Assembly: GCF_014803405.1 (NCBI RefSeq)
Contig: NZ_JACYFG010000032.1
Span: forward strand, 186,001 to 250,000
DNA length: 64,000 bases
Direction of reading: 5' to 3'
Source: Pelagicoccus enzymogenes
Lineage (GTDB): Bacteria > Verrucomicrobiota > Verrucomicrobiia > Opitutales > Opitutaceae
The notes below the pieces were generated by a model, which saw only the letters and a program-made list of their open reading frames with translations, searched no databases and was not told where the DNA came from. This document shows positions 31,674-36,574 of this stretch, piece after piece. The first letter of the stretch is position 1, and each line of letters opens with the position of its first letter. The translations under genes were made by a program, and so were the position numbers.

Positions 31674-32807
31674 CTAACAGCCGAGGTGGAAGAAGAAGCG
31701 TGATCCTTGATCGAGTGAGGATTCGATCCAAATTTCGCCGTCATGGGCCTCGACGATCTTCTTGCAAATGGATAGCCCCAGTCCTGAGCCCTTCGTCCCT
31801 TTGCTTGATGCGAGGCGTTCGAAGGGCAAAAAGATGCGGGTTGAATGGTCTTCGTCGATACCGATCCCGTTGTCCTCTACGCAAATCACGGTCAGCCCGT
31901 CCTCCTGTGAGCTGCTAATTTTGACCACCGGGGGAACACCGTCGCGGCTGTATTTCAGACCGTTTCCGATCAGGTTTTGCAGAACGTGACAAACGAGGCC
32001 GGCGTCGCCACGGATAGGGGACATGTCCATCGCTTCGACGGTACCCTTGGTTTCTTTGATTGTCTCGCGAAGCGTGGCGCAGACGTCTTCTACGAGCGAG
32101 TTTGGATCGAGCTTCTCCTTAACGATCGCTTTGCGGCCGAGGCTAGATAGCTTTTGCAGGTCACGGACGAGATTGATCGAGCGCTTGGCGCTGCTCCTGA
32201 GCAGATCGAGGCATTCCCAGGCTTCAGTGGTTATCTTACCCTTTGAAAGCTCCAACTCGATCAGTTGGGCGAAGCCTTGGATCGCGTCGAGCGGGGAGAC
32301 CAAGTCGTGCGCTGCCATGCTGCCGAAGTACTGCAGGTCGGCGAGGCTGTCCTCGAGCTTGCACTTCTGCGCCCAGCGTTCCATAGCGTAGCGGATGCTG
32401 CGCAGCAAGGTGCGGGGCGTTATCTCCTCCTTGCTCAAAAAGTCCATGGCTCCTAGCTTGAGGGCTTCCTCGCCAAGGTTCAGGTCGGAGATCGCGGTCA
32501 GGACGACGATTGGAAGGGACGGGCAGTTTTGCAGAAAAAGGCTGAGCGTGTCCAATCCCACGGTTTCGGGAAGGCCGAGGTCGAGGATCGCCAAGTTGAC
32601 CGGCTGCGATTTCGCGATTCGCAAGGCATCCGTCAGATTGGTTGCCCGAGTGATGTTCGCCTCGCTGAAGCTACGGGCCGAAAGCACGAAAAGCTCCGCG
32701 TGATCGTCGTTGTCCTCTACGAGCAACAATTCAATTTTGGACGCGCTTCGACGTGCTCGTGGTGCTTTGATCGTATCGGGCATGCGTTTTCGTTTGCTTC
32801 GCTGCAT
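31674..32807 (-). CDS. Hybrid REC-histidine kinase
   Basis: 377 residues with an inverted domain order: an N-terminal receiver domain, then a kinase core, and no sensor or membrane segment. Receiver: 'IELLLVEDNDDHAELF' (acidic pocket) and Asp76 in 'LAILDLGLP'. Kinase: His167 in 'GSMAAHDLVSPLDAIQGF' (HisKA), N box 'LIGNGLKYS', 'VEDNGIGIDEDH' (G1), and 'GTKGSGLGLSICKKIVEAH' (G2). A start eight codons inside is possible. Such proteins receive a phosphate at REC that tunes their own kinase, so they act mid-pathway. It diverges from the ethylene-type sensor kinase with only 165 bp between, so shared regulation is likely. Tail-to-tail with the baeRF gene. Confidence 0.9.
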   Translation of the reverse strand: MQRSKRKRMPDTIKAPRARRSASKIELLLVEDNDDHAELFVLSARSFSEANITRATNLTDALRIAKSQPVNLAILDLGLPETVGLDTLSLFLQNCPSLPIVVLTAISDLNLGEEALKLGAMDFLSKEEITPRTLLRSIRYAMERWAQKCKLEDSLADLQYFGSMAAHDLVSPLDAIQGFAQLIELELSKGKITTEAWECLDLLRSSAKRSINLVRDLQKLSSLGRKAIVKEKLDPNSLVEDVCATLRETIKETKGTVEAMDMSPIRGDAGLVCHVLQNLIGNGLKYSRDGVPPVVKISSSQEDGLTVICVEDNGIGIDEDHSTRIFLPFERLASSKGTKGSGLGLSICKKIVEAHDGEIWIESSLDQGSRFFFHLGC

Positions 32808-32972: not shown

Positions 32973-35900
32973 GTGCCCTCCTCTTCAAATTTGCTTAAGT
33001 GGCGGTTCGAGATTCTGGTTACGCTCGCCATCGTCGCCGGTCTTTTCCTGCTAGCTTACCTGCTCCCTTCGGACTACGTGGAGCGGCTGTGCGCGGCTGA
33101 CTACATGCCGCATGGCCATTGCTACTTCTGGGAGCCGGACATCCTTTGGCTGCATGTCGGCTCGGACAGCCTCGTGGCTTTGAGCTACTTCACGATTCCG
33201 CTCTGCCTCGTCCTGCTGGTGAGGAGACGCAAAGGGTTGAGGTTCCGTGGGGTCTTTTGGTTGTTTAGCCTGTTCATCCTGTTTTGCGGCCTGACTCATG
33301 TGTTCGAAATTTACAGCGTATGGTACGGTGCCTATCGCCTGACGGGCCTGGTTAAGCTGGCCACGGCTCTGGCGTCCGTCGCGACGGCGATCTATCTGGT
33401 CCGCTCCCTACCGATGCTTATAAAGCTTCCGCTGCAGCAGGAATACCGGGAGGTAGAGTCCAAGCTGAGCGAACGAGACAGCCTTTTCCGGGCAATGTTG
33501 ACCGGGGGTCAGGAAGCCTTCGTGAGCGTCAATCCAGTGGAAGGCGAAAACGGGGCCGCGACATCCTTTCTCGTCGACGAATTCAATGAGCTTGCCGCTT
33601 CCGAGCTGAGGGGCGAAGGCGAGAGCTTGCAAGGTCAAGCGATCGACGAGGCGCTGTCCTTTGCTCGCCAAGTCGACTTGGGCGGGATCTTGCAAGGAGC
33701 GTTTCGAAGCGGCGAACCGCAGCGTTTCGAGTTCGAAGTGCAGGAGGAAGAAAAGGAAGCGCGTTGGATCAATCTGCGAGTCGTGCCCGCTGGCTCTCGC
33801 TTGGCCATCTTTTTCATGGACGTATCCGCGGAGCGTCTGACGGAGAAGCGCTTCCGGAAAGAGCTTGAAGAGAGGTTTACCGTTGCGTCGAAGGAGCGCG
33901 ACGCGAATGCGGCTCGCGCTCAAGCTGCTATGTCAGCCGCGGCTCATGGCATCCTGGTGGTGGACGGGAAGGGGAAGATTGTGCAGTGCAATCGGGAATT
34001 GTTGGAGATTTTTGGATACACGGAAACGGAACTGGTGGGCGAACCCGTCGATACTTTGGTACCCGTGGAGGCAAGAGGTCGCCATTCGTCCCATATGGCG
34101 AGTTTTGGAGAGAAGCCTTCCCGGCGAACCATGGGGAAGGCGATTCAGAATCTTTCCGGAAGAAGAAAGGATGGAACGACCTTTCCTGTTGAGATCGGAC
34201 TGAATCCTTTCGAGACCCCGGAGGGACGGTTCGTCTGCGCCTCGGTGGTAGATGTCACCGAGCGTCTGGAGGCAAGGGCGGCGCTGCGGGAAAGCGAGCT
34301 ATTGCTGCAGCAGGCGACCAGCGGTGGAAACGTTGGGATTTGGCACTGGTATGACGTGACAGAGGACAAGCTCTATTGGAGTCCGAAAATGTATGAGTTG
34401 CTTGGATACGAGCCAGATGAATTCGAAGCGAGCTACGAAAAGTTCAAGGAATTGCTGCATCCAGAAGACTTCAAGCCGACCTTGGAGGCCCTGAAGAACA
34501 GCTTCGGCAACAAGTCCCATTTTGAACAAGATCATCGCCTCCTGACGAAAAAGAACGGCTACCGCTGGTTCTTCACGGCAGGCCAGCTTGTGGAAGACCA
34601 ACGGACCGGAAAAACCAAGATGGTGGGGTCGATTATCGACGTGCAAAAACGCAAGGACCACGAGCGCGAGATCGAGCAAATCAACGATACGCTTGCCTCG
34701 AAAAACGTTGAAATGGAACAGATGACTTATGCCGTTTCGCATGACCTGAAGGCGCCCCTTGTATCGATACTTGGCTTGGTGAATCTGCTTGAAGTCGGAG
34801 GTTTCGACATGGGTGAGGATGCCGCAGGTTTGCTGAAGCGCGTGGAAAAGGCGGCTCGCCAAATGCAAAACCTGATCAACGACATGCTGGAGATGGGCAA
34901 GGTCGGCAAGGTCGAGGGCGCTCCGGAGGATGTGGATACCAAGGAAGTGCTGGCAGAGGTTCGAGACCTCTTCGAGGCGGATATCAATCGCCTGGGGTGC
35001 GAGGTTCGCATCGACGAGGAGATCCCTCGGATCTGGACGCAGTCCAAACTGCTGCGACAAGCAGCCCAGAACTTGATTGCCAACGCACTCAAGTATGGAT
35101 GCACGGCGGAAAACCCAAAGATCGAAATATTTTCTAGACGCTCGCAGGATTGGGTCGATCTAATCGTGCAGGACAACGGGAAAGGCATACCTGAGAGCAA
35201 TCGTGAGGATGTATTCAAATTGTTCAGACGCTTGGAGCAAACTGGCGATGGCAGCGGGCTTGGCTTGGCAATCGTAGCAAAGATCATGGGGTCTTTAAAT
35301 GGTCGCGCATTCGTCGAGGGGCACGAGGGAGCGGGAGCGAGGTTCGTGTTGCGCTTCCCGCTGGATAAGCAGCAAGCGCCCTCGAGCCACGACGCCGTAA
35401 AGGATCAGGGGCCACGGCTGATCTTCTCTGACCAAAGCAAACTAGCTCCCAAGCCTCGCTCCATGGCGGGCCTAGGAGAGCAATTTAAGAAGTTCGTCTA
35501 CGCGACCGCCCACGACTTCAACGCGCCTTTGGTCACGATCAAAGGGCACTTGGACTTCTTGTTGACTCATGGGGCGGATGAGCTCGAACCGGACTTCCGC
35601 AAGCTTGTCGAACAAAGCAACAATGCGGCGAATCACATGACCGAGTATCTCGAGGCTCTCGTGAAATACGGGGAGGCCATTTTGGACGAGAAGCAAACGG
35701 GAACCGTGAAAGCGGAGCTCCAGCCTTTGGTTGGCGAAATCGTCGACAAGTGGAGGCTCGCTGAGGATCACGAGCATGTATCCATAAAGCTGCCACAGCT
35801 GCCGGCCGTCGATTGCATCAATGTTAACCTCATGCGGAACCTCTTCGAGAACCTGCTGGAGAATGCAGTTCGTTTCGCCAGCGAAAACGAGAGGCCTGAG

Positions 35901-36164
35901 GTCGAACTAGGCGTAACGGAGGCGGACTCGTTTTGGGCTTTTAGCATCCAGGACAATGGTCCCGGGGTCGCCTCCCATGGCAATCTCTCGTCTCTGGCGC
36001 CGTTCGGACGATTGGGATTGCAGGACGTCGACAAAACCGGAATTGGTTTGGCTACTTGCAAGTTGATCGTTGAGTTGCATGGAGGAGAGATTTGGATGGA
36101 TCCAGATTGCCAAAAGGGAGCGAAGATCCATTTCACGATTCGAAAAGTTGGGGCAAGTAAATGA
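32973..36164 (+). CDS. Ethylene-receptor-like sensor kinase with three PAS domains and two tandem kinase cores
   Basis: 1,063 residues, GTG start. A first membrane helix (residues 13-31) precedes a three-helix domain in which Asp65, Tyr72, Ile75-Pro76, Cys105 and His109 keep exactly the spacing of Asp25, Tyr32, Ile35-Pro36, Cys65 and His69 in Arabidopsis ETR1, where Cys65 and His69 hold the Cu(I) that binds ethylene. Next are three PAS-like domains (about 165-290, 310-435, 440-560). Kinase core 1 has His590 in 'YAVSHDLKAPL', N box 'LIANALKYG' and G boxes 'DNGKGIP' and 'GSGLGLAIV'. Core 2 has His847 in 'YATAHDFNAPL', 'LLENAVRFA', 'DNGPGV' and 'GIGLATCK'. Two complete cores in one chain are rare. 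The response-regulator gene overlaps its stop by 4 bases. The ligand (ethylene or another copper-bound small molecule) is inferred. Confidence 0.9.
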   Translation: MPSSSNLLKWRFEILVTLAIVAGLFLLAYLLPSDYVERLCAADYMPHGHCYFWEPDILWLHVGSDSLVALSYFTIPLCLVLLVRRRKGLRFRGVFWLFSLFILFCGLTHVFEIYSVWYGAYRLTGLVKLATALASVATAIYLVRSLPMLIKLPLQQEYREVESKLSERDSLFRAMLTGGQEAFVSVNPVEGENGAATSFLVDEFNELAASELRGEGESLQGQAIDEALSFARQVDLGGILQGAFRSGEPQRFEFEVQEEEKEARWINLRVVPAGSRLAIFFMDVSAERLTEKRFRKELEERFTVASKERDANAARAQAAMSAAAHGILVVDGKGKIVQCNRELLEIFGYTETELVGEPVDTLVPVEARGRHSSHMASFGEKPSRRTMGKAIQNLSGRRKDGTTFPVEIGLNPFETPEGRFVCASVVDVTERLEARAALRESELLLQQATSGGNVGIWHWYDVTEDKLYWSPKMYELLGYEPDEFEASYEKFKELLHPEDFKPTLEALKNSFGNKSHFEQDHRLLTKKNGYRWFFTAGQLVEDQRTGKTKMVGSIIDVQKRKDHEREIEQINDTLASKNVEMEQMTYAVSHDLKAPLVSILGLVNLLEVGGFDMGEDAAGLLKRVEKAARQMQNLINDMLEMGKVGKVEGAPEDVDTKEVLAEVRDLFEADINRLGCEVRIDEEIPRIWTQSKLLRQAAQNLIANALKYGCTAENPKIEIFSRRSQDWVDLIVQDNGKGIPESNREDVFKLFRRLEQTGDGSGLGLAIVAKIMGSLNGRAFVEGHEGAGARFVLRFPLDKQQAPSSHDAVKDQGPRLIFSDQSKLAPKPRSMAGLGEQFKKFVYATAHDFNAPLVTIKGHLDFLLTHGADELEPDFRKLVEQSNNAANHMTEYLEALVKYGEAILDEKQTGTVKAELQPLVGEIVDKWRLAEDHEHVSIKLPQLPAVDCINVNLMRNLFENLLENAVRFASENERPEVELGVTEADSFWAFSIQDNGPGVASHGNLSSLAPFGRLGLQDVDKTGIGLATCKLIVELHGGEIWMDPDCQKGAKIHFTIRKVGASK

Positions 36165-36574
36165 GTAAAGGTTTGATCAAGTCAGTTGTTTTGGTGGACG
36201 ACAATCCTGATGACCTGTTTATCAACAGTCTCGTCGTGAAAAAGTCGGACCTGAAACTGGAGGCGGTGCAATTCAGCAACCCGGTCTCTGCTCTCGGATA
36301 CCTTGCAAAGGAATCGTCCCCCGACCCGCGTATCGTTTTTTTGGATATAAATATGCCCTATCTCGACGGCTTCGCCTTCCTCGAGCGTTACGAGCAAACC
36401 TGCCACCGCCAAAACCCGAATGACTTGGTGGTGATGCTAACGACTTCCATGCACAGCGAGGACCGGCAGCGAGCGGAAGCGAACGCTCTCGTCAAACGCT
36501 ACCTGAGGAAGCCCTTGACGGTGCGAGATCTCAACGCGCTGGTGGATTCGCTAGAACTGCAGCTTGGCGCCTGA
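36161..36574 (+). CDS. Single-domain response regulator
   Basis: 137 residues, receiver only. 'VVLVDDNPDDLFINS' gives the acidic pair Asp13-Asp14, Asp62 in 'IVFLDINMPYLDG' is the phospho-acceptor, Thr-Thr in 'VVMLTTSMHS' the switch position, and Lys in 'RYLRKPLT' the conserved lysine. It belongs to the Rcp1-like regulators that have no output domain and pass the signal by phosphotransfer or protein contact. The ATGA overlap with the sensor kinase implies coupled translation and makes it the kinase's direct partner. Confidence 0.93.
   Translation: MSKGLIKSVVLVDDNPDDLFINSLVVKKSDLKLEAVQFSNPVSALGYLAKESSPDPRIVFLDINMPYLDGFAFLERYEQTCHRQNPNDLVVMLTTSMHSEDRQRAEANALVKRYLRKPLTVRDLNALVDSLELQLGA

Follow-up and report, generated by a model that had tools for sequence, protein, structure and literature searches.

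A putative ethylene-receptor-type sensor with two histidine kinase cores in Pelagicoccus enzymogenes

The sensor gene and its ligand site

The stretch considered here (the window) comprises 64,000 nucleotides of the genome of Pelagicoccus enzymogenes, a member of a marine genus of the Verrucomicrobiota (contig NZ_JACYFG010000032.1, positions 186,001 to 250,000, forward strand), and the gene in question is an open reading frame (ORF) at 32973-36164 on the plus strand, open for 1063 codons from a GTG. Its predicted product is a membrane-bound sensor in which an N-terminal ethylene-binding domain (EBD) of the ETR1 type is followed by PAS domains and by two histidine kinase cores, HK1 and HK2. A response regulator gene adjoins it on one side, and on the other lies a divergent gene for a protein with a receiver (REC) ahead of a kinase core (REC-HK). 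The features, in window coordinates and with the evidence for each, are as follows.

32973..36164, plus strand: whole sensor gene, 1063 amino acids (aa), GTG start; transmembrane helix, EBD, PAS-like region, two PAS domains, HK1 and HK2, in that order
32982..33059, plus strand: additional N-terminal transmembrane helix, residues about 4-29, preceding the three EBD helices (hydropathy peak at residues 16-28; helix 4-29 in the low-confidence model)
33141..33428, plus strand: ETR1_N ethylene-binding domain, residues 57-152, three predicted membrane helices (Pfam, residue table, hydropathy)
33450..33827, plus strand: PAS-like region, residues about 160-285 (PAS_4 at E 0.086, under the Pfam cut-off; mixed helix and strand in the low-confidence model)
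33945..34262, plus strand: PAS domain (PAS2), residues 325-430 (PAS_9, E 2.6e-14)
34371..34631, plus strand: PAS domain (PAS3), residues 467-553 (PAS_3, E 8.8e-21)
34710..35360, plus strand: kinase core 1 (HK1), residues 580-796, phosphoacceptor H590 (Pfam, own kinase profile, alignment)
35373..35480, plus strand: HK1-HK2 linker, residues 801-836 (orthologues 31-33% identical, GPRL(I/V)FSD retained)
35481..36137, plus strand: kinase core 2 (HK2), residues 837-1055, phosphoacceptor H847 (own kinase profile, alignment, predicted fold)
36161..36574, plus strand: single-domain response regulator, 137 aa (Pfam; orthologues 77% and 72% identical)
31674..32807, minus strand: divergent REC-HK gene, 377 aa, receiver then kinase core (Pfam; conserved candidate partner)

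Judged by its profile match and its residues, the membrane part of the sensor is an ETR1-type EBD. In Pfam the protein matches ETR1_N and PAS families, and HisKA and HATPase_c each appear twice; ETR1_N (PF25487) covers residues 57-152 at E 3.1e-34 and 117.6 bits, against a curated cut-off of 27. No second ETR1_N match was found in the 6.2 Mb assembly (completeness 95.9%), nor any in 14 control genomes. Hydropathy places four hydrophobic stretches in the first 150 residues, namely the additional helix and the three of the EBD. In a profile alignment of 107 distinct EBDs, D65, Y72, I75, P76, I102, C105 and H109 are the counterparts of all seven ETR1 binding residues, which we take to be D25, Y32, I35, P36, I62, C65 and H69, and K128 corresponds to the helix-3 lysine. 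A reading of this DNA from sequence only had proposed ETR1 spacing for Asp65, Tyr72, Ile75-Pro76, Cys105 and His109; profile search and alignment bear this out, and add I102 and K128 to its list. All seven residues are retained in 89 of the 107 EBDs, and the aspartate, cysteine and histidine together in 103. The same reading had counted three PAS domains; two are well supported, and the first region is no more than PAS-like.

One of the aligned EBDs, L147, carries the same eight residues as that of the window. Its strain is presumably Geitlerinema PCC 7105 under a newer name. The locus (about 3147736-3150816, 1027 codons between stops) agrees with the position and length given for GeiEtr2 in the excerpted text of PMC6682694 (3147733-3150810, 1025 aa), and L147 is on these grounds taken for GeiEtr2 of that strain. 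The excerpt describes two putative receptors in Geitlerinema PCC 7105, GeiEtr1 and GeiEtr2, and cells that bind ethylene. Excerpts of the same paper and of PMC11819568 further describe the seven residues as required for ethylene binding and set out the roles of D25, C65, H69 and K91. The membrane domain of the Pelagicoccus sensor would be expected to bind copper and ethylene. The full-length model, built from 4 sequences, is the only one to hold the EBD, and its mean predicted local distance difference test score (pLDDT) of 51 is too low for the geometry of Cys105 and His109; a PDB sequence search for a structure of the membrane domain found none (best E 0.67, unrelated). As positions i and i+4 of one helix, the two residues would in any case lie on one face.

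Directly ahead of the EBD helices stands a His/Cys-rich motif, MPHGHCYFW (residues 45-53, window 33105-33131), of a type common to the window and most family-level EBDs; many class-level EBDs have a W-x-C-G-x-W form instead. The named-genome scan selected for the motif, which may bind a metal or form a disulphide.

That the membrane domain senses a cue other than ethylene, be it copper, another unsaturated gas or redox state through the Cys-His site, appears very doubtful. Such a cue could be read from the gene for a Cu/Zn superoxide dismutase (PF00080, 27890-28612) about 4.4 kb upstream of the sensor gene in this genome, and the sequence-only reading had indeed described the neighbours as oxidative-stress genes suggestive of a redox signal. 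Among ten scanned neighbours, however, the dismutase is the one clear oxidative-stress gene, and in three congeners none of the SodC, TPP enzyme, baeRF, ExoD, NDH2, transaldolase and SDR genes was found within the 10-13 kb beyond REC-HK (tblastn, E 1e-5). With none of these upstream genes (SodC among them) turning up next to the locus in the three congeners, the redox idea loses its footing and was rejected on synteny. Retention of all seven ethylene-binding residues and of the output lysine likewise speaks against a different ligand. In the window, genes for a TPP enzyme, an ExoD-like protein and a type II NADH dehydrogenase-like protein lie beside the dismutase gene.

Two kinase cores of different descent

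The own kinase profile delimits two full-length cores, at residues 580-796 and 837-1055, and alignment identifies H590 and H847 as the H-box histidines of two HisKA domains, each within HD-x-x-A-P. Between the cores lies a linker of about 36-40 residues, and no Response_reg match is found in the sensor protein at E up to 1 (Pfam). In HK1 the phosphoacceptor histidine and the N, G1, F and G2 boxes are all present by Pfam and alignment. For HK2, the C-terminal 247 aa searched alone give HATPase_c at E 3.1e-16 and HisKA at 26.6 bits, just below the Pfam cut-off of 26.9, and the genome scan places the same HisKA above it at 28.7 bits. Compared with 42 other kinase cores, HK2 retains H847, N960, N964, D994, G996, G998, F1011, G1023 and G1025. 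It has N850 where 31 of 43 aligned kinases have R or K, and L1008 where 40 of 43 have F, a position that is atypical in two of the three orthologues and F in that of G103. Thus both HisKA-HATPase cores proposed in the sequence-only reading are present, and the word full must be qualified for the second, at L1008 and at two further positions (R967 and K1021) weighed below.

The structure model of HK2 (mean pLDDT 85.4) has a DHp plus CA fold, matching HK853-RR468 (6rh0) at E 1.2e-13 and ZraS with ADP at Z 18.0 and a root-mean-square deviation of 3.2 over 220 residues. HK2 has, as modelled, a kinase fold, and together with the retained core ATP-site residues this supports the proposed second kinase core, whose activity is predicted. 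Nonsynonymous divergence (dN) between the three genomes is 0.20-0.25 for HK2, 0.23-0.24 for HK1 and 0.61-0.79 for the 36-residue linker; synonymous divergence is saturated or undefined for most pairs, so that dN alone is used, and the G103 response regulator is left out of the comparison. Given that HK2 is held to the same dN as HK1 while the linker diverges far more, HK2 does not have the appearance of a decaying leftover.

The two cores are, by alignment and tree, of different descent. HK2 is 24% identical to HK1 and 24% identical to the REC-HK kinase. In a tree of 56 kinase cores it groups with the phytochrome-type kinase of G063 (support 0.955), and HK1 groups with the kinase of the G102 orthologue and one other. 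An origin of HK2 by tandem duplication of HK1 was rejected on the low identity and the different branch; derivation from the neighbouring REC-HK kinase is likewise unsupported, with identity equally low and that kinase on another branch.

The locus in Pelagicoccus and the rarity of its layout

An EBD gene is present in four of eight Pelagicoccus genomes. In three of them (the window's, G089 and G103) the layout EBD-PAS-HK1-HK2 occurs with the adjoining response regulator, whose start codon overlaps the sensor stop in the window (ATGA) and lies 7 bases past it in G089 and G103. In the fourth, G102, the orthologue (L030:6904-9417) is a protein of 838 aa with EBD, PAS and HK1, without HK2 and without the regulator, ending some tens of bases from speA. 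HK2 may have been gained in three genomes or lost in one. A REC-HK orthologue stands at all four, at 100, 78, 76 and 49% identity to that of the window; the best REC-HK match in the four congeners without the EBD gene reaches 39-41%, and the window genome's own paralogue elsewhere 39%. Both REC-HK and the single regulator retain the receiver aspartate, threonine and lysine, as judged by eye. The genes speA, yajC and secDF are conserved on one flank of the locus. In three of the four EBD-less genomes nothing but speA was found in the 7 kb behind speA; EBD-less G019 has a kinase-receiver ORF of 1340 aa there, without an EBD. A second EBD kinase gene is found in G103 (L032:6302-8056, 585 aa, one kinase); a REC-HK gene and an ORF for a small receiver lie behind it.

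Architectures were compared over 109 EBD loci from the window, family, phylum and named-genome sets, with L068-L070 dropped as copies of L015, L031 and L018 and an EBD found in 109 of 110 sequences; some loci may be one genome twice (for example L088 and L229, whose contigs are equal in length). Single-kinase EBD-HK proteins make up 69 of these loci, followed by EBD-HK-REC (27), EBD-HK-REC-REC (6), EBD-HK-HK (3), EBD-HK-REC-HK (2), EBD (1) and EBD-REC (1). The three EBD-HK-HK loci are all from Pelagicoccus. Since the named-genome scan used a single motif, MPH[GE][HQF]CYx[WR], and retained 80 of the 389 relatives, these counts describe a biased sample. A search across 372 genomes of the order added ten loci, each with one kinase, and across the phylum EBD genes occur in 24 of 387 genomes, 23 of them above the family cut-off. 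The double kinase had been called unusual, and three loci in 109 agree with this; two kinases behind an EBD also occur, however, in the EBD-HK-REC-HK proteins of a Verrucomicrobia groundwater metagenome-assembled genome (MAG; L129:9884-12991) and an Oligoflexaceae MAG (L133:3288-5801), so that the combination is rare and not unique. The HisKA matches listed for the window genome number 79, and among them one other ORF with two was noted by eye, a 904-aa protein on contig C39 (L188:1471-4182) that reads HK-REC-HK, by eye and from its two HisKA matches, and has a receiver-like ORF behind it.

The best matches in the open-licence literature included no study of this protein or of an EBD with two kinases, which is a weak negative, and none of an ethylene receptor in Pelagicoccus.

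Proposed working and relation to known systems

The reading preferred here, about evenly poised between right and wrong, is that the gene encodes a bacterial ethylene-receptor-type kinase in which an HK2 of other descent stands C-terminal to HK1, with a CheY-like regulator co-expressed from the adjoining gene. The membrane domain, carrying Cu(I), would bind ethylene or a like small olefin, and the signal would pass from the EBD through the PAS stalk to HK1. A common dimer would couple HK1 and HK2, and both would change activity; the output of HK1 would then go to the REC-HK protein of the divergent gene, its longer-standing partner, and that of HK2 to the response regulator whose gene follows that of the sensor. 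The coupling of HK1 to HK2 and the assignment of partners to the two kinases are inferred. HK2 and the regulator are jointly present in three loci and jointly absent in the fourth, which is counted in support of a link between them, and the regulator is probably made together with the sensor because of the ATGA overlap or the 7-base gap. The single-kinase EBD gene of G103, also with REC-HK and a small receiver ORF behind it, is counted in favour as well. In its fullest form, the receptor would have two channels: a single copper-gas sensor would drive two kinases of separate descent, HK1 acting on REC-HK and HK2 on the single regulator, and the second channel would have been gained or lost within Pelagicoccus. 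This is tentative and rather unlikely.

Several observations weigh against the preferred reading. The HK2-regulator link amounts to one presence/absence difference within one genus, and a REC-HK gene lies within 2.5 kb of just 8 of the 109 EBD loci, four of the eight being this same locus. Nor do the wider neighbourhoods favour HK2, because a related regulator is found close behind 12 of 30 HK1 relatives versus 9 of 30 HK2 relatives, a count over the 147 non-orthologous regulator matches among those listed, with the G102 orthologue left out of the HK1 list (an earlier count had used 27 hand-chosen regulator rows and an HK1 list that included this orthologue). The best outside matches of HK2 and of the regulator both fall in one gene pair, G063:C20. 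Shared neighbourhoods as a sign that HK2 and the regulator are an old cognate pair are given no weight, as the HK1 control shows the same or more. Within HK2 itself, R967 replaces the N-box lysine found in 38 of 43 aligned kinases, K1021 replaces the first G2 glycine found in 39 of 43, both departures recur in both orthologues, and the lid (residues 1009-1021) is the weakest part of the model (pLDDT <50); given these three features, ATP turnover by HK2 may be weak.

Such departures at the ATP-site boxes would suit a different role, in which HK2 is a phosphotransfer, lid-impaired or regulatory module. HK1 would supply the phosphate, and the helical pair of HK2 would pass it on, take it back from a receiver or set the dimer geometry, as in a TodS-like relay with the receiver in trans (REC-HK or the single regulator). 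TodS offers a precedent, working by a His1-Asp1-His2-Asp2 relay with two autokinase modules according to excerpts of PMC4321377; two other EBD proteins are EBD-HK-REC-HK, and receivers in trans flank the sensor gene on both sides. This role for HK2 is nonetheless unlikely, as no receiver lies between HK1 and HK2, the remaining ATP-site residues are retained and the constraint on HK2 equals that on HK1. The neighbourhood data, which do not separate the regulator partners of the HK1 and HK2 types, and the HD-x-x-A-P shared by both kinases would also allow both to feed one same regulator, with HK2 merely raising flux or stabilising the dimer and without a second channel. Against this stand the identity of just 24% and the different tree positions of the two kinases, and their equal constraint would argue against plain redundancy; a single shared output is thus regarded as quite unlikely.

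Ethylene receptors have received little study outside plants and cyanobacteria, and the present findings place a putative receptor in a Verrucomicrobiota genus. Its layout could allow two separate switches to respond to one gas signal. Within this genus, the same locus holds a receptor with one kinase in one genome and receptors with two in others, which lends itself to comparing what the second kinase contributes to one input. The closest such comparison is the G102 orthologue, which shares the EBD, the PAS set, HK1, the divergent REC-HK and speA on the other flank, and differs in having neither HK2 nor the response regulator.

Among described systems, the sensor has the features of the SynEtr1 and AzoEtr1 kind, with an N-terminal EBD, sensor domains, a C-terminal kinase and a response regulator nearby. 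AzoEtr1 of Azospirillum brasilense, as presented in excerpts of PMC11819568, likewise has an N-terminal EBD in which the ligand residues are the same (D35, C75, H79 and K98), PAS, a histidine kinase and a predicted response-regulator gene; it is a protein of 525 aa with one PAS and one kinase, whereas the Pelagicoccus sensor has an additional transmembrane helix, two or more PAS domains and a second kinase core. The cyanobacterial SynEtr1, GeiEtr1 and GeiEtr2, in the excerpted text of PMC6682694, are also EBD-led histidine kinases, and both Gei proteins have the seven binding residues; SynEtr1 differs in carrying a cyanobacteriochrome and one kinase, and GeiEtr2 (from L147) in carrying PAS, GAF, one kinase and a receiver. 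L129 and L133 share an EBD with two kinases, but have a receiver between them and the first kinase close behind the EBD. TodS of Pseudomonas putida, from what the excerpts of PMC4321377 convey, resembles the sensor in its two autokinase modules per polypeptide, whereas it has a central receiver and neither a membrane part nor an EBD; the receiver between two kinase modules that marks the TodS type is absent from the Pelagicoccus sensor, in which a linker of about 36-40 residues separates the two kinases.

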